A stretch of 12,430 nt of DNA from Gemmatimonadota bacterium (GTDB lineage: Bacteria; Gemmatimonadota; Gemmatimonadetes; Gemmatimonadales; Gemmatimonadaceae). Positions 2,050 through 12,430 of this stretch are shown piece after piece (positions within the stretch are counted from its first letter, which is position 1; each line of letters opens with the position of its first letter). Location of the stretch: assembly GCA_003222065.1 (NCBI GenBank), contig QHUV01000017.1, positions 1 to 12,430 of the forward strand, in the 5' to 3' direction. Under the pieces are notes generated by a model, which did not search any database, was not told where the DNA came from, and was given only the letters and a program-made list of their open reading frames with translations. A program made the translations under genes and the position numbers.

Positions 2050-3978
2050 ATGATTGCCGAGATGAAAAACTTCTCAATCGCGGTTGTCGCGTCGACGCTC
2101 GCCGCGTGCGCGCAACCGCTCAAGCTCACGCCCGACGACTCGAAGGTCGTCCTCGCCCATCAGCTGCTCGATGCGCCGAACCCGGCGGACCGCGGGCCGT
2201 ACACTGTGAAGACCTTGTATTACGGGAGTGGGACCGACAAGCAGCGCCGGTACTTCCGGGATTCGGTCGCGATCAAAACGAAGCCGACCGATGCTTCGGC
2301 GTTCGTGTCCATGACTCCGGAGCAGGCGAGCGATCGAAAAGGGTATTGGGGATTCGAGGCGAAGCAGTTTCCGATCAACGGTCGCGTGTGGTATCCCGAC
2401 GGCCCGGGGCCCTTCCCGCTCGTGCTCGTCGTGCACGGCAACCACAACATGAAGGACTTCTCTGATCCCGGCTATCAATATCTGGGCGAACACCTCGCGT
2501 CGCGCGGGTTCATTCTCGTATCGCTCGATGAGAATTTTCTAAATGGCGCTCTCCGCAACGAGAACGACGGCCGGGCGTGGATGATGCTCAAGCATCTCGA
2601 GGCCTGGCGCGGGTTCAATGACAGCGTGACGAGCCCGCTGCGCGGTAAGGTCGACATGCGCAACATCGCCATCATGGGCCACTCACGCGGCGGCGAGGCG
2701 GTCGGCCATGCGGCGGCGTTCAATCGACTGTCGCGCTATCCTGATGACGCGAAGGTGAAATTCAACTTCAACTTCGACATCAAGGCCGTCGTCGCCATCG
2801 CCCCCGTCGACGCGCAGTACAAGCCGGCGGGACAATTCACGCCTGTCGAGAACGTGGACTATCTCGTCATTCATGGCTCGCACGACGGCGACGTGTCCGC
2901 GTTCACCGGTCTGCGGCAGTGGCAGCGCGTGAAGTTCACGGACGGAAAACCGTGGTTCAAATCGGCGTGGTATGTCTACCGCGCCAATCACGGCCAATGG
3001 AACACCGTGTGGGGCAGCACTGACGCGGGGCCGCGGAGCGCGCGGTTCCTCGACTTGCGTGGTCTGATTTCTCCGGAAGAACAACGTCAGTTCGGCAAGG
3101 TCGTGATCGGCGCGTTCCTCGAGGCCACGCTCCATAACAAGCATGAGTACCTGCCGCTCTTCCGCGATCATCGCGTTGCCGGTGCCTGGCTCCCGAAGAC
3201 GATGTACATCACTCGCTTTCAGGAGAATGGCTACGAGCCGCTCGCGAATTTCGAGGAGGACGTGGACGTCACCACGGGCACCGTCGCCGGCGTGAGCCTA
3301 ACGGGTGACAGCCTCTCGACGTGGAAGGAAGACGCCCTCAATCTGCGCTGGCAGAACGCGCCGATGAACGACAACGCGGTGTGGCTTGGTTGGAATCGGC
3401 ACATTGCCGGTGACGACACAACGAAGCTCGGACGGCCAGCCACCTATACCATCGCGCTCAGCGATTCTATTTCCCATGCGCTACACGTCGACATGCGATC
3501 GTCGATCTATCTCTCGGTGGCGCCGACGGAGGCGAAACCTGGTCCGCGTGAAGCGGCGAAGGATTCGACCAAGAAGCGCGATTCGACTAAGGCGCGGCCG
3601 AAGCCGAAGCCGCCTGAGACGAAGAAAGACGCGAAGGACACCACAACAATCGACTTCACGGTGGAGCTGGTCGACGCGAACAACGTCACGGCGCGATTAC
3701 CGCTGACGCGATATGGCGCGCCACGACGGCCACTCGAGACGCACGTGCTGCGCCGCGCCGACCGCGAGCAGAGCCAGTTCGCGAACACGTACGAGCTTGT
3801 GCTGCAAACGTACGTGATGCCGCTAGCGGATTTCGTCACCGCGTCGCCGCAGTTCGCGCCCGACAAGCTGAAAGCCATCCGCCTCGTATTCGATCGCGCC
3901 GTCGTCGGCACGATCATCCTCGACGACATCGGCGTCTCGGCGATCGATCCAGCGTTTCTCGCGCAGGCGCGGCCGTGA
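2050..3978 (+). CDS. Lipoprotein alpha/beta hydrolase with C-terminal beta-sandwich
   Basis: Up to 642 aa. The N-terminus has a lipobox (STLAAC; Cys20 from this start, Cys16 if translation begins at the in-frame ATG at 2062, MKNFSIAVVASTLAAC). Lipid anchoring to a membrane is therefore likely; neither start has a good ribosome site, and 2062 gives the more typical lipoprotein signal. The hydrolase domain covers about residues 95-370: HGNHN as oxyanion-loop candidate, GHSRGGE with nucleophile Ser212, HGSHDGDV with Asp279 or Asp281, and NHGQW with His314. It resembles dienelactone hydrolase/PET-hydrolase-like esterases. Residues about 380-642 look like a beta-sandwich (strands ending in VVGTIILDDIGVS, typical of galactose-binding-like modules). 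They are interrupted by a Lys/Asp/Pro/Thr-rich stretch at 498-534. The substrate is unknown; esterase or polymer-degrading activity at the envelope is inferred. It is the last gene of the left operon. Confidence 0.85.
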   Translation: MIAEMKNFSIAVVASTLAACAQPLKLTPDDSKVVLAHQLLDAPNPADRGPYTVKTLYYGSGTDKQRRYFRDSVAIKTKPTDASAFVSMTPEQASDRKGYWGFEAKQFPINGRVWYPDGPGPFPLVLVVHGNHNMKDFSDPGYQYLGEHLASRGFILVSLDENFLNGALRNENDGRAWMMLKHLEAWRGFNDSVTSPLRGKVDMRNIAIMGHSRGGEAVGHAAAFNRLSRYPDDAKVKFNFNFDIKAVVAIAPVDAQYKPAGQFTPVENVDYLVIHGSHDGDVSAFTGLRQWQRVKFTDGKPWFKSAWYVYRANHGQWNTVWGSTDAGPRSARFLDLRGLISPEEQRQFGKVVIGAFLEATLHNKHEYLPLFRDHRVAGAWLPKTMYITRFQENGYEPLANFEEDVDVTTGTVAGVSLTGDSLSTWKEDALNLRWQNAPMNDNAVWLGWNRHIAGDDTTKLGRPATYTIALSDSISHALHVDMRSSIYLSVAPTEAKPGPREAAKDSTKKRDSTKARPKPKPPETKKDAKDTTTIDFTVELVDANNVTARLPLTRYGAPRRPLETHVLRRADREQSQFANTYELVLQTYVMPLADFVTASPQFAPDKLKAIRLVFDRAVVGTIILDDIGVSAIDPAFLAQARP

Positions 3979-3999
3979 AGGGCCCGTCATGACAGCGGC
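3979..3999. other. 21-bp gap between convergent genes
   Basis: The hydrolase gene (+) and the small charged protein gene (-) converge here with only 21 bp between stop codons. The gap contains two small palindromes, GGGCCC and GTCATGAC, but no hairpin followed by a T-run. Termination for both genes must lie inside the opposite gene or be factor-dependent. Confidence 0.5.
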
Positions 4000-4335
4000 C
4001 TAAAGCATCCTCTCCGCCGCGGCGACGATGCGCGCCGCGTAAGTAGCCGCGGACTCGTCATCACGGCGCCGCGGCACGACGAGCCGCTCGTCATCGGGCT
4101 GCGACGATTCCGGCGTATTGACGAAGCTGTCCTCACCGAGCTGAGCGAGCCGACCCTCGAACGTCTCGACCGCATTTACGATGAGGAGCACATCCTCGTC
4201 GGATTCATCACCAATGAGCTCGATGCGTCGCTCGCGCAAGCGTGCCTCGAGCTCGTCGCGCGCGTGTCGCCGCTCCTCGGCGCGGTGCGGATTCCGCTCT
4301 TCATCCGCCGGGTCGTTCCATCGAGACATGGCCAT
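4000..4335 (-). CDS. Small highly charged hypothetical protein
   Basis: A 111-aa protein that I do not recognise. The start at 4335 (MAMSRWNDPADEE) is chosen over upstream in-frame ATGs because a strong Shine-Dalgarno sequence, GGAGGAA (4342-4348), lies 6 nt before it; a second ATG two codons later is less well spaced. Residues 8-40 are rich in Glu and Arg and probably form a long charged helix or coiled coil. Residues 46-67 (DEDVLLIVNAVETFEGRLAQL) could be an amphipathic helix. Residues 70-95 are polar and probably loose, and 95-111 form a final Ala-rich helix. No signal peptide or membrane segment is visible, so it is likely cytoplasmic. It is transcribed away from the 589-aa protein gene across a 134-bp divergent region. 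Its clean ribosome site and uninterrupted frame argue it is real. Confidence 0.75.
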   Translation of the reverse strand: MAMSRWNDPADEERNPHRAEERRHARDELEARLRERRIELIGDESDEDVLLIVNAVETFEGRLAQLGEDSFVNTPESSQPDDERLVVPRRRDDESAATYAARIVAAAERML

Positions 4336-4469
4336 GTGACGTTCCTCCACCGTCCGCCGGTTCGCCCACTGTGTCGTTCGCTCGGTGCGACTGCAGCGCC
4401 ATCTGGCACGCGCCGTGCCGCTCCCGTAGTGTAGTCGAGCATAGCTTCCGGCGCGCACTCAACGATTGC
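4336..4469. promoter_or_regulatory. Divergent intergenic region with 15-bp inverted repeat
   Basis: This 134-bp stretch separates two divergently transcribed genes and should hold both promoters. The clearest structure is GGCACG-CGC-CGTGCC at 4405-4419, a perfect 6-bp inverted repeat with a 3-bp centre. It lies 8 bp downstream (minus-strand sense) of a possible -10 element, TACACT. No convincing -35 pairs with that -10 at normal spacing, so the promoter is weakly supported. The inverted repeat could be an operator or a short hairpin in the minus-strand leader. Confidence 0.35.
4342..4348 (-). promoter_or_regulatory. Shine-Dalgarno site deciding the start of the small charged protein
   Basis: On the minus strand the sequence reads GGAGGAA, 6 nt, then ATG at 4335. 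It is one of only two strong ribosome sites in the window and rules out the longer 152-aa reading that would begin at 4458. Confidence 0.8.
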
Positions 4470-6239
4470 ATGCTTGCTTCACTGTTCGTCGCTGCTCTAT
4501 CGACGGTCGTGCAGGGGACGCCCCTCCAAACCGTCGTCGTGGCGCGCCGTGACGAGCCGGCACAGGCGCGGAAGGCGGCGACTTCTGATTCGATCCGCGC
4601 CTCGCGGTCGGCGCGCCGCGCTCAAGAGACGTTCGAGTTTGTGCGCCGGCAGTATCTGCCAAGGGAGTACGGCGTCGGCAGTCACCATTGCGACGTGCGC
4701 ATCGGCCGCTGGTGTATCTGGAACGACGAGACGAATGATCGAAAGCCGCCACCCGAGTCCCCGCATGTCACGCAAGCGCGGGAAAGACTACTTGGCGTTC
4801 TCGACACGGTTGGCGCACACTTTCCGGGCGACGAATGGGTTGCCGCGCAACAGGTGCGGTACCTCATCGAGGCGAAGCGATTCGGAGACGCGGTGCGCAT
4901 CGCCGAACGTTGTGCGTCGAGCGGGTCGGTTTATCTGTGCCGCACGTTCGCCGGTGTTGCGCTTCACGATTCGGGCGCTGTCGCCGCAGCCGATTCGGCT
5001 TTCTCCGCGGCGCTCGGAGCGATGCCTGACTCAGTGCGTTGCCGATGGAGCGACATCTCGGTGCTCCTCGATGACAACGTCGCCGATCGATACGAGCATG
5101 CCGATTGCACCGAGCGACATCCCATCGAGGCCGCCTTCTGGCGCCTAACGAATCCGCTCTATCTACGTGAAAACGATTTCCGGAACGAGTATCTCGCTCG
5201 TGTCGCGCGAACCGAGATGCAGAGAAACTCGCGGACGCCGATGGGTTCGCCGACTGACGATGCATTTCGTGAGACGGCGTTGCGCTATGGCTTCGATACC
5301 TGGTTCGTGCGCGACGACCCATCAGTGGGATCAATGAGCGAGCCGGCGATCGCCGGCTATCGCGAGGGTGGACCGGGATTCAACTTCGTTCCCTCATCAT
5401 CCGCATTCGAGTCGCCTGCCGATCTGCGGCCGAGTGATTGTGACTTGAGGCTTCGCTCGGCGCGCGCGATTTATGCCCCAGCATATGCGCGGCATTTTCG
5501 TTCGCTCGATCGCCAACAGGTCGCTGTTTTTCGCCGCCGTGATTCCGCTCTTGTCGTCGCCGCGTACGATGCGCGCGACGACACGGCCCTCACTCAGCGA
5601 CCGTTGGAGGTGGGTCTCTTCGCCGCCGTGGTGGAACCCACCTCGATTCGTGCGGCGCAAGGCACGACGACGACGCAAACCGACTCGCCTGGCTTGCTGA
5701 CGACGACTACGCTCTGGGGTCCGATGTTGGTGAGCATCGAGCTCCTCGATCGCGAGACCAAGACGGCCGCTCGTGCGCGGTATGGCGTTAGGCCCCCGCC
5801 CTCGATTGGACGAATCGGCGTGTCTGATCTCCTGATGTTCGCCCCACGCGCCGGAGACTCCGCGCCATACAAGCTCGCGGACGCACTCCCGCTCGTTTTG
5901 CACGCTGGGCGAGTCTCGGCAACTCAACCATTGGGTCTCTTCTGGGAGACATACGGCGTGCGTCCGCAGGGCGAATCGTTTGGCGTGTCGCTTACCATCG
6001 ATCGGATTCAAGAGGGCTGGATGCGTCGGGCGGCTGAGCGAATTCATCTTGCCACTCCATTCTCGCCGGTCCGCGTGGAGTGGCAGGAGGTGCCGGACCG
6101 CGGCGACAACATTGCGTCGCGAGCTGTCTCGCTCGACCTCTCACGCCTCTCCCCGGGCCGCTATGAGATCACTCTTACGGTGACACCCAAGGATGAGCCG
6201 AGCGTAGTCGCCAAGCGTGAGGTGACCGTAGATCGTTGA
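4470..6239 (+). CDS. Exported GWxTD-like / TPR-like hypothetical protein
   Basis: A 589-aa protein from the ATG at 4470 (MLASLFVAALSTVVQG). A longer reading from 4242 would run across the divergent region and the opposite gene and is rejected. The N-terminus looks like a short signal peptide, although it lacks the usual basic residue. Residues about 99-200 are helical and TPR-like (SGAVAAADSAFSAALGAMPD). Residues about 223-277, starting FWRLTNPLYLRENDFRNEYL and ending in RYGFDTW, resemble the GWxTD domain found in Gemmatimonadota and Acidobacteriota proteins, but the diagnostic Gly-Trp-x-Thr-Asp is not intact. The C-terminus (PGRYEITLTVTPKDEP) resembles the Ig-like tail of such proteins. Two cysteines flank RIGRW near residues 75-85. 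Its function is unknown, and the family link is a pattern judgement. The small membrane protein follows 68 bp downstream. Confidence 0.7.
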   Translation: MLASLFVAALSTVVQGTPLQTVVVARRDEPAQARKAATSDSIRASRSARRAQETFEFVRRQYLPREYGVGSHHCDVRIGRWCIWNDETNDRKPPPESPHVTQARERLLGVLDTVGAHFPGDEWVAAQQVRYLIEAKRFGDAVRIAERCASSGSVYLCRTFAGVALHDSGAVAAADSAFSAALGAMPDSVRCRWSDISVLLDDNVADRYEHADCTERHPIEAAFWRLTNPLYLRENDFRNEYLARVARTEMQRNSRTPMGSPTDDAFRETALRYGFDTWFVRDDPSVGSMSEPAIAGYREGGPGFNFVPSSSAFESPADLRPSDCDLRLRSARAIYAPAYARHFRSLDRQQVAVFRRRDSALVVAAYDARDDTALTQRPLEVGLFAAVVEPTSIRAAQGTTTTQTDSPGLLTTTTLWGPMLVSIELLDRETKTAARARYGVRPPPSIGRIGVSDLLMFAPRAGDSAPYKLADALPLVLHAGRVSATQPLGLFWETYGVRPQGESFGVSLTIDRIQEGWMRRAAERIHLATPFSPVRVEWQEVPDRGDNIASRAVSLDLSRLSPGRYEITLTVTPKDEPSVVAKREVTVDR

Positions 6240-6271
6240 GCCCGATGGCGCGCGCGCACGGCACCTGCACT

Positions 6272-6301
6272 GTTCCTCGGTGCTTCAAGAAATCGAGGAA
6301 C
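6272..6301 (+). promoter_or_regulatory. Hairpin burying the ribosome site of the next gene
   Basis: GTTCCTCG (6272-6279) and CGAGGAAC (6294-6301) are perfect 8-bp complements around a 14-nt loop. The right arm contains the whole GAGGAA Shine-Dalgarno sequence (6295-6300), 7 nt before the ATG at 6308. In RNA the stem would hide the ribosome site, a layout used for translational control or coupling to ribosomes arriving from the upstream gene, whose stop is at 6237-6239. The arms are plainly visible; regulation is inference. Confidence 0.5.
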
Positions 6302-6307
6302 GGCCGC

Positions 6308-6796
6308 ATGCAGTCTTCCCGCAACACCTCTGTCGCCCGCGCCGCTGGCCGCGGCGCCATCGCTGGGCTCGTCGGCGGCGCCGCCATGACGGCCGCCGAG
6401 CGAGTCATCCTGCCACGTTTGCCTGACCGACGCGCTCCCCGCATTACGCCTTGGGATGCGCGCCTTTCCGACGCCGTCGACGCACTTGGTTGGGAGATGT
6501 CTCCCCGGGCACGCACCGCAGCCGGCATAACGACGCAGTTACTTTACTCGGCCCTCCTGGGCGCCGCGTACGCCGCGCTGGTAAGTCGCAGGCCACCACG
6601 CGCTGTGCACGATCTCGCCGATGCCTTGCTCATCTTCGCCGCATCGCTCGTCGCACCTGAGCTGCCGCGCCGGCGGAAACGGCGAAGGCAGGGCAGCCGG
6701 CTTGCCAAGCTGGGGCGCCGGGCGGTCGAGCCAATCACCGTGCCGCGAGTGTTCGGCCGCGCGACGACGCTCGCGTTGCGCGCGCTGGAGCGATGA
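6308..6796 (+). CDS. Small membrane-associated protein, YagU/DUF1440-like
   Basis: A 162-aa protein. The ATG at 6308 is chosen because GAGGAA lies 7 nt upstream; a TTG at 6236 (overlapping the previous stop as TTGA) and an ATG at 6245 have no comparable site. Hydrophobic or amphipathic segments lie at about residues 14-35 (GRGAIAGLVGGAAMTAAERV), 71-93 (QLLYSALLGAAYAALV) and 101-118 (LADALLIFAASLVAPEL). The glycine-rich first segment, with GLVGGAAMTAAE, resembles the start of YagU/DUF1440-type inner-membrane proteins. Residues 121-139 are strongly basic (RRRKRRRQGSRLAKLGRR), suggesting a cytoplasmic face that contacts lipid or nucleic acid. The function is unknown. The stop codon sits inside the left arm of a perfect 20-bp inverted repeat. 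Confidence 0.7.
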   Translation: MQSSRNTSVARAAGRGAIAGLVGGAAMTAAERVILPRLPDRRAPRITPWDARLSDAVDALGWEMSPRARTAAGITTQLLYSALLGAAYAALVSRRPPRAVHDLADALLIFAASLVAPELPRRRKRRRQGSRLAKLGRRAVEPITVPRVFGRATTLALRALER

Positions 6797-6846
6797 CCGT
6801 CATCCCGAGCGAAGCGAGGGATGACGGTCATCGCTCCTCGGAATGA
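6787..6846. repeat. Dispersed hairpin repeat (GTCATCCCGAGCGAAGCGAG type)
   Basis: GGAGCGATGACCGTCATCCC (6787-6806) and its exact reverse complement (6818-6837) flank an 11-nt loop, GAGCGAAGCGA, giving a perfect 20-bp stem. The core GTCATCCCGAGCGAAGCGAG is, to my knowledge, a widely dispersed intergenic repeat in many soil bacteria, usually closed by a reverse arm like the CTCGGAATGACA seen here at 6837-6848. The element therefore has an inner pair of arms and an imperfect outer pair (GTCATCCCGAG against CTCGGAATGAC). The left arm contains the last codons and TGA of the small membrane protein gene. No T-run follows, so this is a hairpin repeat that may stop or stabilise transcripts rather than a classical intrinsic terminator. 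Confidence 0.75.
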
Positions 6847-6924
6847 CAGGTGTGCTCTTCCGAGACGCCGAAGGCGACCCCACATTTGGCCGCGGTCATT
6901 TTTCTCTTCGATGGCGGTGTGTGT

Positions 6925-9240
6925 ATGCGCTCCCTCGTGCGTCCTCTTTCGTGCGTCGCTCTTGCCGCCGCCGCGATGGCGGGCTCCCCGTCCCTCCCGG
7001 CACAGAGTCCTTCGTCAGCGACCCACGCCGGGAAGGACTCCCTATTCACCGCCGAAGACGGCCTGGACGTCGTCACTTACAATGCGCTCGACCTAACGAG
7101 TGACGGCCGCTGGCTCGCCGCGACGTCGGCGTCGCGGCGCGACGGCCTCGGCGTCGATTATCGGCGCGACGGCGATCCCACATATATCCGGCCGGCTGCC
7201 GCGCGCGTGTGGGTGATCGATACGCGCTCGGGCAGCCCACGCTCGGTGTTCGGCGACAAGCGCAATGTTCGCGCGGCTCGCTGGGCGCCGGACGGATCAC
7301 GACTCGCGCTGCTCGTTTTCGACGCGAAGAGTGCCGCCTTTCAGCCGGTCCTCTGGGAGCGCGAGAGCGGTCGCCTAACGACCATCGCCGTCCCGGCCGG
7401 GAAGTACGTCGCCGAGAACAGCGAGTTGCGCTGGAGTGCCGACGGTAAGCGGCTCCTGTACGCGCTGCACACGCTCGCCTGGCGGAAAGCGGTCCAGGAC
7501 TCGTTCGCGGTAATGACCGCCGGTCCGGTATTCGTGCAATCGAGCGACAACTCGTTCCTGACCTGGGACGCACTGCGCCGCGCCGCGAATGTCCGGAGCA
7601 TCGTTGCGTATGATCTCCCGTCCGGTAAGACAATCGAGCTCCTGCCAGAAACGATGGTCGCGAGCTGGGACGCGAGCGAGGATGCCTCGACGCTCACCTA
7701 CAGCGAGGACATCACCAAGAAGACCGACTACGACGTGATCTTCGGAAGTGAGAACAAGCTCATGGCACGCGCCCTCGCGTGCCCCGCTGCGCCCGATGCC
7801 TGCGGCAAGTCGCGCGTACTCCTTCCGACGCTCAAGGGAACCAACATCGTCTGGTCAGAGGACGGTGGGCATTACGCGTACGCGAAGGAAGGTCGCGTGT
7901 ACGTCGCCACACTCAACGATACGGCGGCGCGGCAGGTTGCCGGCCCGGCGGCGGAGACGAGACGCGATGTACCGTCCGATAGCTCGCGCGACGCGCGGGA
8001 ACGACGTGAGCGTGAGCGCTTTCGCGTCGTTCGCTACAGTCCGGCGAACGTCGCCCTCCTCGTCGCCAATTCGCAGGGCTTTTGGTTGCTCGAGCTGCCG
8101 AGCGCCGCGAAGCAGCTCATCGTCGAAAGCGCGGATTCCGGCTCAACGACCCTCCCCCGCGCCACGCTCGCGGCCTGGAGCAACGACGGCAAGAAGCTGT
8201 ATTTCACGGTCGCGTCACGAACGAAGTGGGAACGGGCTATCGTTCGCTACGATCGGTCGACATCGAGTAAGCAAACGCTCATCAGTGATGGCCGCACGTA
8301 TTCGAACGTGCGTCTCTCCAAAGACGGCCGTGTCGCCACGTTGAACGTTTCGGAGGGCAATCGCCCCCCTGTGCTTTCGGTCGCCGACGCCGACTTCACG
8401 TCGGTGCGTCCGCTCATCGAGCCGAATCCACAGTTGAACGTCAAGCGCTTCGGGCCGACCAGTCTCGTGAACTACCTCGACGCCGACGGTCACGCGAAGT
8501 ACGCGGTCGTGTACTATCCGGTTGGTTACGAGCGCGGAAAAACGTATCCGACGATCTTCATCATCTACGAGGACTTCTTCGACGACACATTCGATCCGGT
8601 GGCGAACGTGCTCACCGCGAATGGCTACGTCGTCGTCAAACCGTCCGTCGATTTCGACATCGGCTATCCCGGCGAGGCGTGGATCAAAGGCGTGACCGCC
8701 GCCGCCAACAGGCTGATCGAGATGGGCGTCGCCGACTCATCGCGTCTCGGCGTACATGGCACGAGCTACGGTGGTTATGCGACGAATCTGCTCATCACGC
8801 AGACCAATCGGTTCAAGGCCGCGATCAATATTTCGGGGAAGGTCGACATCATCAGCTTTTATACCGACAGTCCCCGGCTCGGGGTACGCAACGTGCACGC
8901 GGCGGAGAAGAGCCAGGACCGCCTCGGCGCAACGTTGTGGCAGCAGCCGCAGAAGTACGTGCAGCAATCCGCGATCATGTTTGCCGATCGAATTCAGACA
9001 CCGCTCATGCTGATTACGGGCGCGCAAGATTCCAACGTGCCCGCCGACAATACGCGCGAGATGTATTACGCCTTGCGCCGCCTCGGCAAAGAAGTGGTCT
9101 GGGTGAATTACATGAATGGCGGGCATGGCGGCGGCAATGCAACCGCGGATGACGTCCTCGACATGCAACGCCGCATGTTGACCTGGTACGACTCCAAGCT
9201 GAAACGCGCACCGTCGAAAGTCGCGTCAGCGTCGCCATGA
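6925..9240 (+). CDS. Exported S9-family (prolyl oligopeptidase-type) serine peptidase
   Basis: A 771-aa protein from the ATG at 6925, chosen because it begins a clean signal peptide (MRSLVRPLSCVALAAAAMAG, ending near LPAQ); a GTG at 6850 would put 25 non-signal residues in front. The ribosome site is weak. Residues about 35-500 form a WD40/TolB-like beta-propeller with repeated blades (WAPDGSRLALL, WSADGKRLLYAL, WSEDGGHYAYA, WSNDGKKLYFTV). The C-terminal alpha/beta hydrolase domain starts near residue 515. The triad is Ser614 (GTSYGG), Asp702 (GAQDSNVP) and His734 (NGGHGG), at spacings normal for S9. It probably cleaves small peptides in the periplasm or outside the cell. The usual HGGP oxyanion motif is replaced by YEDFF at 548-552. 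It is preceded by the hairpin repeat and stands alone between transcription units. Confidence 0.93.
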   Translation: MRSLVRPLSCVALAAAAMAGSPSLPAQSPSSATHAGKDSLFTAEDGLDVVTYNALDLTSDGRWLAATSASRRDGLGVDYRRDGDPTYIRPAAARVWVIDTRSGSPRSVFGDKRNVRAARWAPDGSRLALLVFDAKSAAFQPVLWERESGRLTTIAVPAGKYVAENSELRWSADGKRLLYALHTLAWRKAVQDSFAVMTAGPVFVQSSDNSFLTWDALRRAANVRSIVAYDLPSGKTIELLPETMVASWDASEDASTLTYSEDITKKTDYDVIFGSENKLMARALACPAAPDACGKSRVLLPTLKGTNIVWSEDGGHYAYAKEGRVYVATLNDTAARQVAGPAAETRRDVPSDSSRDARERRERERFRVVRYSPANVALLVANSQGFWLLELPSAAKQLIVESADSGSTTLPRATLAAWSNDGKKLYFTVASRTKWERAIVRYDRSTSSKQTLISDGRTYSNVRLSKDGRVATLNVSEGNRPPVLSVADADFTSVRPLIEPNPQLNVKRFGPTSLVNYLDADGHAKYAVVYYPVGYERGKTYPTIFIIYEDFFDDTFDPVANVLTANGYVVVKPSVDFDIGYPGEAWIKGVTAAANRLIEMGVADSSRLGVHGTSYGGYATNLLITQTNRFKAAINISGKVDIISFYTDSPRLGVRNVHAAEKSQDRLGATLWQQPQKYVQQSAIMFADRIQTPLMLITGAQDSNVPADNTREMYYALRRLGKEVVWVNYMNGGHGGGNATADDVLDMQRRMLTWYDSKLKRAPSKVASASP

Positions 9241-9266
9241 ACCTTCCGTCTTCGGCGAGCGCACCC

Positions 9267-9296
9267 TTGCTTCGCTGCCGGCAGCGTCACTAGCTT
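9267..9296 (+). promoter_or_regulatory. Putative marR promoter with 14-bp palindromic operator
   Basis: TTGCTT (9267-9272) and TAGCTT (9291-9296), 18 bp apart, form a weak sigma70-like promoter. The spacer begins with CGCTGCCGGCAGCG (9273-9286), a perfect 14-bp palindrome. MarR-family repressors commonly bind palindromes overlapping their own promoters, so this is the best operator candidate. A second short inverted repeat, ATTGG-CAC-CCAAT (9303-9315), lies near the expected transcription start. The palindromes are directly visible; promoter and operator roles are inferred. Confidence 0.45.
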
Positions 9297-9327
9297 CGAT
9301 GCATTGGCACCCAATACAACGGTATCC

Positions 9328-9819
9328 GTGACTTCTTCCGACGACACCGCCCGCGCGATGAACGCCGTTCGTAGCATCGTGCGCGCGTTGCGTCTGAACA
9401 CGCGCAGTATCGAGGGAAAACTGGGCATCAGCCTCGCGCAACTCTTTGTTCTTCAGCAGTTGGTCGACAAGCCGGCGCAATCGTTGAATGAGCTCGCGGA
9501 GCGAACGGCGACACATCAGAGCTCCGTTTCGGTCGTCGTCCGCCGGCTGGTCGACCGTGGATTCGTGACGCGCGTCGCCTCGACGTCCGATCGCCGTCGC
9601 GTGCACATTGCGCTGACGGCCGCTGGCGAGAGCTTGCTCCGCGGCGCGCCGCCAACCGTGCAGAGTGATCTCATGCACGGCATGTCGCGGATGCGTCCCG
9701 ATCAGCGGGCCACGTTGGCGGAGCTGCTCGAGCTGTGGGTCCTTGCCAGCGGGATCGACCTGGCGGCGCCACCGATGATGTTCGAGGACGAGCCGGGAGC
9801 TCGCGTCGGGAGTGCCTGA
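9328..9819 (+). CDS. MarR-family transcriptional regulator
   Basis: A 163-aa regulator using the GTG at 9328 (MTSSDDTARAMNAV). A TTG at 9304 (171 aa) and an ATG at 9358 (153 aa) are alternatives, and none has a clear ribosome site. The winged helix covers about residues 52-101: SLNELAERTATHQSSVSVVV holds helix-turn-helix and recognition helix. It is followed by RRLVDRGFVTR and the wing ASTSDRRRVHIALT, with the conserved Asp-Arg of MarR proteins at 88-89. Helices before and after would form the dimer interface. It probably represses its own operon until a small ligand or oxidant binds. The stop overlaps the start of the ClC gene by 8 bp, so the two are almost certainly co-transcribed. A palindrome in the upstream promoter supports autoregulation. 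Confidence 0.9.
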   Translation: MTSSDDTARAMNAVRSIVRALRLNTRSIEGKLGISLAQLFVLQQLVDKPAQSLNELAERTATHQSSVSVVVRRLVDRGFVTRVASTSDRRRVHIALTAAGESLLRGAPPTVQSDLMHGMSRMRPDQRATLAELLELWVLASGIDLAAPPMMFEDEPGARVGSA

Positions 9820-11716
9820 CGAGTCGCAAACGCCGTTGAACGCCGCGAGTGGTTTACCGGTCGCGCCGTCGCTAGAGCCGGCGCTCGCTGCGGTCGATGC
9901 GCCGCCCGAGTACGTCCCCGTCGACCGACGCGTCGTCGTTATTTCCGCGATCGCGGTGCTCGTCGGTATTGGCGCGGCCCTGCTCGCCAATGTGCTCACC
10001 CGCCTCATTGGGCTGATAACCAACGTCGCCTACTATGGACGCGTCTCGACGGCGTTCGCCGCGCCGAGCACCGTTAGGCTCGGCGCCTGGTCGATTCTCA
10101 TACCGCTCACGGGCGCGTTTGTCGTCGGGATCATGGCCCGTTACGGGGCAGCAGCGATACGCGGTCACGGTATTCCCGAGGTGATGGAGCGCGTGCTCTA
10201 CGCACGCAGTCGCATCGCGCCACGCATCATGTTTCTCAAACCGCTTTCCGCGGCGATCGCCATCGGCACCGGCGGGCCGTTCGGCGCCGAGGGACCGATC
10301 ATCGCGACGGGCGGTGCATTGGGTTCGATCGTCGGCCAATTCGTTAGGATGACGGCCGACGAGCGGAAGACACTATTGGCCGCCGGTGCCGCCGCTGGTA
10401 TGGCCGCCACGTTCGGCAGTCCGGTCTCGGCGGTGCTGCTCGCCGTCGAGCTGCTGCTCTTCGAGTATCGCCCGCGCTCCGTCATCCCTGTCGCGCTCGC
10501 GTCGGCGGTCGCGACCGGCGTGCGCGCCGCGTTCGTCGGCTCGGCGCCCGTGTTCTCGGTGCCCGCGCTCACGCAACCCGATCTCGAGACGCTGTTCGCG
10601 TACACGCTAATCGGCGCTCTGGTCGGCGTCGCGTCGGTCGGCGTCACGCGCTTCGTTTACTGGGTCGAGGACCTGTACGAGGAGCTGCCGATTCACTGGA
10701 TGTGGTGGCCTCTGGTCGGCGCGCTGGTGGTTGGCGTCATCGGATACTTCGAGCCGCGAACGCTCGGCGTCGGTTATACGAACATCGACGCGATTCTCTC
10801 GGGGAACATTGTCGGCCGGGCGCTGCTCGTCCTGATCGTCCTGAAGTTTCTGTCGTGGGCGATCTACCTCGGCAGCGGCACGTCGGGCGGAACGCTCGCC
10901 CCGTTGTTCACGATCGGTGGTGGCCTCGGCGCGGCGCTCGGTTCGTTAGGCATTCTCATCGACCCGAGGCTTGGCATCGACGCGCATGTCGCGGCGCTTG
11001 TCGGCATGGCGGCCATCTTTGCCGGCGCATCGCACGCGCTCCTCGCCTCGGTGGTGTTTGCGTTCGAGACGACGCGGCAACCGCTCGGCCTTCTACCGCT
11101 CCTCGCCGGATGCAGCGCGGCATATCTCGTATCGCTACTGATGATGCGCAGCTCGATCATGACCGAGAAGCTCGCTCGGCGCGGAGCGCGCATACGCACC
11201 GAGTACGCCGTCGATCACCTCAGCCACGTACTCGTGCGCGACGCGTCGTCGCGACAGGTCGTTTCGCTTCGCGCCGCCGATCGATTGGGCGATGTGCGGC
11301 ACTGGTTGGCCAGCGGCGCAAAGGGCTCATCGCATCAGGGGTTTCCGGTGATCGACGAAAGAGGCGAGCTATGCGGGGTCGTGACGCGGCGTGACTTGCT
11401 CGACGCTGCACGCGACGATACGACGACGATCGCCAGTCTCGTGCGGCGCGGCGCGGTCGTCGTCTACGAGGACAACACGTTGCGTGAAGCCGCGGACCAC
11501 ATGGTGCGCGCTGGCGTCGGCCGTCTGCCTGTCGTCGCCCGCGAGGCGCCGCGTGTCGTCGTCGGCATCGTGTCGCGAAGTGACCTGCTCTCCGCGCACG
11601 AGGATCGGCTCGACGCCGCGCACGTGCCCGAGGAGAGCCTGCCGCTGGCCGCGCCCTGGTCGCGTCGCCACTCCGTCATGAGTAGGCGAAGGACCCGCCT
11701 GCGCGACCGAAGCTGA
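9812..11716 (+). CDS. ClC-family anion channel/transporter with CBS-domain pair
   Basis: A 634-aa inner-membrane protein. It starts at a GTG overlapping the marR stop, which suggests translational coupling. The ClC membrane domain spans about residues 45-450 with the family landmarks in order: GHGIPEV (118-124), FGAEGP with gating Glu160, VELLLFEYRP with Glu213, and GTSGGTLAP with Leu362. Residues about 470-615 form two CBS domains (FPVIDERGELCGVVTRRDLL; LPVVAREAPRVVVGIVSRSDLL), which usually bind adenine nucleotides and regulate gating. Compared with E. coli ClC-ec1, His119 replaces the central Ser, Leu214 stands where Glu203 would be, Leu362 replaces the Phe of GIFAP, and Met450 is at about the Tyr445 position. 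The external gate Glu is kept. The transported anion and the coupling to protons are therefore uncertain. The residue alignment was made by eye. Confidence 0.92.
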   Translation: MPDESQTPLNAASGLPVAPSLEPALAAVDAPPEYVPVDRRVVVISAIAVLVGIGAALLANVLTRLIGLITNVAYYGRVSTAFAAPSTVRLGAWSILIPLTGAFVVGIMARYGAAAIRGHGIPEVMERVLYARSRIAPRIMFLKPLSAAIAIGTGGPFGAEGPIIATGGALGSIVGQFVRMTADERKTLLAAGAAAGMAATFGSPVSAVLLAVELLLFEYRPRSVIPVALASAVATGVRAAFVGSAPVFSVPALTQPDLETLFAYTLIGALVGVASVGVTRFVYWVEDLYEELPIHWMWWPLVGALVVGVIGYFEPRTLGVGYTNIDAILSGNIVGRALLVLIVLKFLSWAIYLGSGTSGGTLAPLFTIGGGLGAALGSLGILIDPRLGIDAHVAALVGMAAIFAGASHALLASVVFAFETTRQPLGLLPLLAGCSAAYLVSLLMMRSSIMTEKLARRGARIRTEYAVDHLSHVLVRDASSRQVVSLRAADRLGDVRHWLASGAKGSSHQGFPVIDERGELCGVVTRRDLLDAARDDTTTIASLVRRGAVVVYEDNTLREAADHMVRAGVGRLPVVAREAPRVVVGIVSRSDLLSAHEDRLDAAHVPEESLPLAAPWSRRHSVMSRRRTRLRDRS

Positions 11717-11732
11717 TTCGCAAGCTCTCGTT

Positions 11733-12430
11733 ATGCTCGAGATCCTGAACCTCGAGAGCCTGGAGGTCCGGGCCCGGGAGCGGCTCGATCCAATGCTCTT
11801 CGACTACATCGCCGGCGGAGCGGGCGACGAGTGGACGCTTCACGAGAATCGCGCCGCATGGTCTCGCCTTCAGTTGCTGCCCCGCATGTTGCGCGGCGTC
11901 GGCAGTCGCGATCAGCGAACGACGGTGCTCGGCACCGCGGTGTCGTTTCCCGTCCTTGTGCCGCCGATGGGCTTCCACGGTCTCTGCCACGAAGATGCCG
12001 AGGTCGCGACAGCGCGCGCGACCGCGAGTGCCGGCACCATCTTCGTTGCCAGCACGGTGTCCAATCGAAGTCTGGAAGCCATTGCCGAGGCGTGTGCCGG
12101 ACCGCGCTGGTTCCAGCTCTATGTCTATCGAGACAAGGCGATAACGCGCGACCTCGTCCAGCGCGCCGTCGCGGCTGGTTACTCCGCCCTCTGCCTAACG
12201 GTCGACACACCATTGGCGGGACCTCGGGAGCGCGATCGGCGAAATCGGCTACGGATGCCGGCCCACCTGGGACTGGAGAATTTTCCGGCGACGCACGCCG
12301 AGCGGCACACCGCCGGCAGCGAGTCGGAGTCGGCACTTGCGCGCTACATCGCGGATATGTGGGACGCAAATCTCACGTGGGCCGATGTGGATTGGCTAGA
12401 ATCCATCTCGAACCTCCCGGTGATCATCAA
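11733..12430 (+). CDS. FMN-dependent alpha-hydroxy-acid dehydrogenase/oxidase (3' end outside window)
   Basis: The frame from the ATG at 11733 (MLEILNLESLEVRARERLDP) stays open to the window end: 232 complete codons of a family usually 350-390 aa. Residues line up with glycolate oxidase numbering plus one: Tyr25 (FDYIAGGAGDE), Tyr130 (FQLYVYRD), Asp158 (LTVDTP) and Arg165 (GPRERDRRN), all substrate or FMN contacts. The segment VPPMGFHGLCHEDAEVATA is the FMN-binding first strand and loop and looks closer to lactate oxidase than to glycolate oxidase. The window stops in LPVII plus AA, exactly at the codon expected for the catalytic-site lysine. The enzyme would oxidise a 2-hydroxy acid such as lactate, glycolate or mandelate to the keto acid; the acceptor cannot be told. 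It begins 16 bp after the ClC stop with no clear ribosome site, so it is probably the third gene of the marR operon. Confidence 0.93.
   Translation, partial: MLEILNLESLEVRARERLDPMLFDYIAGGAGDEWTLHENRAAWSRLQLLPRMLRGVGSRDQRTTVLGTAVSFPVLVPPMGFHGLCHEDAEVATARATASAGTIFVASTVSNRSLEAIAEACAGPRWFQLYVYRDKAITRDLVQRAVAAGYSALCLTVDTPLAGPRERDRRNRLRMPAHLGLENFPATHAERHTAGSESESALARYIADMWDANLTWADVDWLESISNLPVII

Follow-up and report, generated by a model that had tools for sequence, protein, structure and literature searches.

GCCTAACG, an over-represented 8-mer of Gemmatimonadota genomes, as a putative DNA uptake sequence

We describe here a non-palindromic 8-bp word, GCCTAACG (CGTTAGGC on the complementary strand, as judged by inspection), which is dispersed through a 12,430-nt stretch of DNA from a bacterium of the family Gemmatimonadaceae (hereafter, the window) and through the genome to which the window belongs. 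That the word is selected as DNA is strongly supported because it is in large excess over synonymous shuffles, is used to form stop codons and is retained between congeners. These three results support the first of two options considered likely in the first-pass annotation of the window, selection or mutation bias at the DNA level. Of the classes of over-represented words already described, DNA uptake sequences (DUS) fit best. Serving as a DUS would thus be the most likely function of GCCTAACG, with uptake as the putative selecting process, and we give this interpretation an even chance of being correct.

An 8-bp word selected as DNA

The genome of the window (G000; 3.73 Mb in 736 contigs, 81.7% complete) contains 2,065 copies of GCCTAACG, 986 on the forward and 1,079 on the reverse strand, which corresponds to ~553 copies per Mb. 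The reversed word is found 226 times in the same genome (114 forward, 112 reverse). In 142 kb comprising the window and 20 other contigs, GCCTAACG is the most over-represented 8-mer, with 104 copies versus 4.7 expected under a third-order Markov model; the over-representation therefore stands in the comparison that the first-pass annotation had set as the test of its claim. The unit named at that stage was a 7-mer, CCTAACG/CGTTAGG, the over-representation of which is real, but which is one base short of the true word. Columns flanking the 8-mer hold at most 0.31 bits each, without an extended flank consensus, and the unit is therefore 8 bp.

The effect of protein and codon preferences was assessed by shuffling synonymous codons in ten genome samples (30 shuffles per sample) with the protein sequence and the codon pool fixed, the genes being predicted with our own codon-model finder (the model was seeded with comEC) rather than with a standard annotator. 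The copies lie for the most part inside genes. Predicted coding sequence in 150 kb of the window's genome contains 101 copies of GCCTAACG, versus 2.7 after shuffling (maximum 6). The corresponding numbers are 190 versus 3.8 in Gemmatirosa kalamazoonensis (G080) and 13–41 versus 0.3–1.5 in the remaining eight samples. The G080 sets used for codon shuffling, spacing, near forms, gene-context density and inverted partners include a redundant element, L101. This 21-kb high-copy element (G080:C1), called a possible phage in the genome announcement (PMC3974934), is largely a repeat of the chromosome's first 14.5 kb (L102, G080:C2); the 20 kb of it that were compared are identical to parts of chromosome bases 1–14,513 except for ~480 bp.

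The word can be placed on codons in four ways, all of which are in use. Placement NCG TTA GGC predominates in several genomes, and 118 of the 143 TTA codons sampled in G080 sit within the motif (some of this DNA was sampled twice). Two of the placements include a stop in frame, and these are used where genes end: among 1,104 predicted genes, 69 terminate inside the motif, versus 4.5 expected if the last codon, the stop and the next two bases were independent. Across the whole predicted set the motif supplies 41 of 269 TAG and 28 of 122 TAA stops, and in Gemmatirosa it holds 34 of the 103 sampled TAA/TAG stops. With the stop-codon copies set apart, motif density per kb is 0.79 in convergent, 0.39 in tandem and 0.28 in divergent contexts, and 0.42 in coding sequence. 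A seeming excess at convergent gene ends in G080 (4.4 per kb) fell to 1.56 per kb there, and to 0.79 per kb across all samples, once motif-borne stops and the duplicated L101 were removed, and was discarded.

Retention of the word was followed in reciprocal best orthologues aligned by codon, at sites with identical amino acids. In the genus of the window (g1; six ordered pairs of the three genomes G000, G242 and G361, among which sites recur), the 8-mer is kept at 34 of 43 sites, versus 25–28% of other amino-acid-identical windows. Control windows with a rare Leu codon were kept in 34 of 448 cases, and TTA codons outside the motif in one of 19. When all 15 ordered pairs are taken together, 68 of the 104 sites are kept, versus 55,804 of 201,603 control windows (27.7%). 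Genus g13 keeps 24 of 38 sites (control 34%), and the nearly identical genomes of g24 keep all four (control 74%). Across genera, G090 and G156 share seven of 13 sites (control 22%), other cross-genus pairs offering few sites. Between the carrier G080 and the low-count genome G159, none of two sites is kept, or none of 12 when amino acids are ignored.

Distribution and near forms in Gemmatimonadota

Counts of GCCTAACG in 395 Gemmatimonadota genomes separate 23 carriers, with 361–4,469 copies each, from three genomes with 168–181 and 369 with at most 93. The carriers belong to 11 genera in two families, nine genera in f1 and two in f2. The highest count is that of G. kalamazoonensis, which is assigned in the NCBI taxonomy to Gemmatimonadaceae, the family of the window's genome. 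G080 was recognised as this species because the first 20 kb of its megaplasmid matched at 100%. When 8-mers occurring at least eight times are ranked by z-score, GCCTAACG is at the top in eight of nine carrier sets (G080, G156, G090, G102, G109, G000, G200 and G242+G361), with 222 copies versus 8.7 expected in the 400 kb of the G080 set. In the ninth set, G245, it ranks behind only GTTAGGCA, with which it overlaps. Another over-represented word, GAGTCCCGA/ACTCGGGAC, is found in the G080 chromosome sample. Low-count genomes, pooled to 442 kb, contain GCCTAACG once versus 1.1 expected, and other top words in pooled non-carrier DNA (20–60 kb per group) are weak or local only. The strongest of these is a 7-bp tandem repeat of genus g14, (ACTAGTC)n, which is unrelated to the motif and occupies many g14 sites (e.g. 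L200:1429–1589, in G047:C19); its pattern matches number 412 in G047, 120 in G113 and 70 in G095, and only four in G246.

In a phylogeny of ComEC covering 40 of the 46 genomes with a ComEC match (19 carriers and 21 low-count genomes), which is a tree of one gene rather than of species, eight changes between carrier and low-count labels are needed, and well-supported branches force at least five. Low-count G229 and G033 adjoin carriers G200/G363, and low-count G159 falls into an unresolved group with carriers G080 and G245. A search of open-access PMC found no title or abstract reporting the word in this phylum, and none dealing with uptake sequences together with Gemmatimonad names; the accessible part of PMC5217627 mentions neither Gemmatimonas nor Gemmatirosa.

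Words with a single mismatch to GCCTAACG are enriched clade by clade. GCCTAACA and GCCCAACG are enriched in g16 and g24, and mainly GCCTAACA in g28, ACCTAACG in g1, g10, g18 and g41, GCATAACG in g1, g10, g13 and g18, and GCCTGACG in most clades. These near forms may represent reader dialects or else result from decay of the word. A few copies are paired in perfect hairpins (L158:503, L125:13221), an arrangement known for uptake sequences. Local three-copy runs are found in Gemmatirosa at L102:18234, L133:8156 and L137:5869, with steps of 16, 9 and 11 bp, respectively.

DNA uptake as the possible selecting process

If GCCTAACG is an uptake sequence, it would act as a self-label scattered through the genome. 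At the cell surface, a DNA receptor belonging to the type IV pilus/competence machinery, putatively of the pilin type, would read the word and prefer fragments that bear it, and recombination of such fragments would maintain and spread copies wherever coding permits. According to the accessible parts of published descriptions, uptake sequences are not palindromes, form inverted repeats in ~10% of cases, have no orientation bias and are in excess outside genes (PMC1939737); they are present in thousands of copies, their dialects follow phylogeny and they accumulate in the core genome (PMC3630211). The accessible part of PMC12616744 gives only two families as known to have them. Features shared by GCCTAACG are the copy number, the lack of a palindrome and of polarity, the clade-specific near forms and the presence of pilus and competence genes.

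The DUS of Neisseriaceae, which is read by the minor pilin ComP, is likewise a short word that is not a palindrome and occurs thousands of times without orientation bias, located in and between genes and accompanied by clade-related near forms or dialects (PMC3630211, PMC1939737, accessible parts). By contrast, the word described here differs in sequence, is 8 bp long, belongs to another phylum, shows no clear excess outside genes and is patchy within a family, and its uptake and receptor are putative. The uptake signal sequences (USS) of Pasteurellaceae have a similar density (31–913 per Mb in the accessible part of PMC12616744) and, like GCCTAACG, form occasional inverted pairs (PMC1939737, accessible part), but differ in sequence, and the word described here has no extended consensus at its flanks.

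Genes expected for uptake are widespread. The PilT family is present in all 20 carriers and all 22 non-carriers examined, DprA in 17 of 20 and 21 of 22, ComEA-like proteins in 19 of 20 (most scoring under the curated cut-off) and 20 of 22, and ComEC in 19 of 23 and 27 of 30, respectively. Since the same genes are equally present in non-carriers, no competence gene found tracks the word, and this is the first of several observations that weigh against uptake as the explanation. In the three carriers and three non-carriers compared, the comEA-pilB-pilT-pilC locus looks much the same. No receptor candidate emerged either from a comparison of pilins in four genomes (54 matches, 30 loci listed, nine pilins picked) or from one pilus locus compared in six genomes. 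Intergenic density is not clearly above that of coding sequence, unlike in published uptake sequences. No preference for core genes was seen between genes with a relative in the congener stretch (104 copies in 262 kb) and genes without one (18 in 36 kb; p 0.33). Retention is weak in g10 (six of 17 sites, control 20%) and absent in g41 (none of two), and inverted partners are infrequent in G080 (13 of 255 sites, some of them duplicated). Finally, the patchy spread of one identical 8-mer, as it appears from the genomes and the ComEC tree, needs several losses or gains. With these points considered, we find it just short of an even chance that several Gemmatimonadota lineages carry a self-recognising uptake system marked by one 8-mer, for which the relatives sampled imply five or more losses or gains.

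Alternative roles of the word

The alternative that survives best, although we regard it as unlikely, is that GCCTAACG is bound inside the cell by an abundant DNA-binding protein involved in nucleoid organisation, segregation, recombination or repair, and is kept for chromosome architecture. Conserved copies dispersed on both strands, approximately one per 1–2 kb, would suit such a role, as would gaps between copies that in most samples are a little more regular than expected at random (coefficient of variation 0.66–0.97, uncorrected for short contigs). Against it, there is no strand polarity: copies in 20 stretches sampled from the closed chromosome of G080 are split evenly between strands (62 forward and 77 reverse in the first half, 41 and 42 in the second), with the origin assumed to lie near base 1, where GC skew is weak. 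The KOPS-like polar motif suggested in the first-pass annotation thus finds no support. This word far exceeds known segregation sites (e.g. KOPS, matS) in copy number, and a patchy presence among close relatives would be odd for an essential architectural site.

It is improbable that GCCTAACG is the recognition site of a DNA-modifying enzyme, as in the case of HIP1 and its methyltransferases. Cyanobacterial HIP1, according to the accessible part of PMC4390886, is an over-represented 8-mer that is tied to methyltransferases, dominates genomes and is absent from some relatives, so that the suggested likeness to a HIP1-like repeat holds in scale. However, HIP1 is palindromic and GCCTAACG is not, nor is the latter among published adenine-methylated motifs: the methylome of G. 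kalamazoonensis obtained by single-molecule real-time (SMRT) sequencing, as published, lists only RGATCY, ATGCAC and CCAGN7TCA (PMC3974934). Only one of 275 sampled motif sites overlaps any of these three. SMRT data of this kind detect 5-methylcytosine poorly, so the methylation site proposed from the window is contradicted for adenine, which the SMRT evidence covers, and not for 5-methylcytosine.

A Chi-like recombination hotspot for RecBCD, AddAB or AdnAB, also among the first suggestions, has a comparably slight probability. Like Chi of Escherichia coli, the word is an over-represented non-palindromic 8-mer within genes, but its excess is ~20-fold, it has no polarity, and RecBCD or AddAB were not detected in most of the carriers examined. 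RecC was found in two of 20 carriers and four of 22 other genomes, and the PF12705 nuclease domain was unmatched in 13 of 20 carriers; of the seven with a match, four have single weak matches, two bear RecC and one, G155, has a long AddAB-like pair. AddAB-like pairs are, moreover, present in low-count G229 and G033, the neighbours of carriers in the tree.

Integrons offer another source of similar sequences, since the core box of attC/attI sites is RYYYAAC (attC core GTTRRRY), which is matched by GTTAGGC. The word could in principle be a footprint of this box spread by integron recombination. GCCTAAC(G) adjoins several integrase genes, including those of non-carriers, and in low-count G002:C43, G138:C5 and G114:C2 same-strand runs of GCCTAACG with steps of ~400–2,000 bp resemble integron cassette arrays in their spacing. 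This origin is nevertheless very improbable. Matches to integron integrases exceed the cut-off in 13 of the 23 carriers and in 17 of 30 other genomes, showing no association; dispersed copies are single, lie on both strands in conserved genes and differ between orthologues by point changes, and no paired core box accompanies them in the alignments seen. If GCCTAACG does serve uptake, its match to the attC core might, as a speculation, favour cassette DNA. Finally, a codon, peptide or mutation bias without a reader, consistent with the predominance of NCG TTA GGC in several genomes, is refuted, within the limits of our gene predictions, by the shuffles (0.3–3.8 versus 13–190 copies observed), by the retention contrast with other TTA codons in g1 and by the use of all four placements, including those with stop codons at gene ends, which leaves it a next to negligible probability. 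Overall, what stands from the first-pass annotation is DNA-level selection on a dispersed motif, which is strongly supported; most of the roles it named are not, and DNA uptake sequences, the best fit, were not named in it.

Copies of the word in the window

A pattern search returned the nine copies of CCTAACG/CGTTAGG listed previously, on both strands (3297+, 5144+, 5786−, 7092+, 7374+, 10072−, 10342−, 10944− and 12194+). In dinucleotide-preserving shuffles of the window (64.4% GC) the mean was 0.72 copies (standard deviation 0.79, maximum 3), and none of 200 shuffles reached nine. Seven of the nine copies are full GCCTAACG, in line with the extra GC pair noted before, and the other two are the 7-mer only. 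The scarcity of GTTA/TAAC had been put at about 19 occurrences, half of them in the 7-mer; the total is actually 22, of which nine are indeed within the motif. The use of A/T-rich codons (CTA, TTA or GTT-AGG) in the copies was likewise correct, as was the lack of any copy before 3297.

The first copy (3296..3303, +) lies in a hydrolase-like open reading frame (ORF; 2050–3978) as x-GC CTA ACG, encoding Leu-Thr, and is kept in both congeners, G361 and G242. ORF 4242–6239, which has no Pfam match, contains two: 5143..5150 (+), kept in both congeners, and 5786..5793 (−), read as GTT AGG codons and kept in neither. In the S9 peptidase ORF 6850–9240, a 7-mer-only site, ACCTAACG (7092..7098, +), is kept as the 7-mer in G242 and not in G361, and the full word at 7373..7380 (+) is kept in both. 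Three copies on the reverse strand fall inside the ClC channel gene (9812–11716), as had been pointed out: 10072..10079, kept in G242 only; 10342..10348, a 7-mer-only site (TCCTAACG on the reverse strand) kept in neither congener; and 10944..10951, read as TCG TTA GGC and kept in both. This cluster needs no special meaning, because copies occur on average every ~1.8 kb in the genome. The last copy (12193..12200, +) is located in ORF 11733–12428, which runs past the window end, as TGC CTA ACG (Cys-Leu-Thr); it is kept in G361, and its last base is changed in G242.

Implications

By its signature, the word looks most like the 'self' labels by which a few bacteria choose the DNA that they take up. 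If this is true, self-recognising uptake would exist outside Neisseriaceae and Pasteurellaceae, in a distant phylum that is represented mainly by metagenomic data. The intermingling of carriers with non-carriers in the tree would then make it possible to examine why words of this kind originate, spread and disappear, and comparison of carriers with non-carriers that have alike competence machinery could reveal the receptor. Whichever protein is the reader, the word strongly shapes the coding sequence of Gemmatirosa, because the motif holds so many of its sampled TTA codons and TAA/TAG stops.

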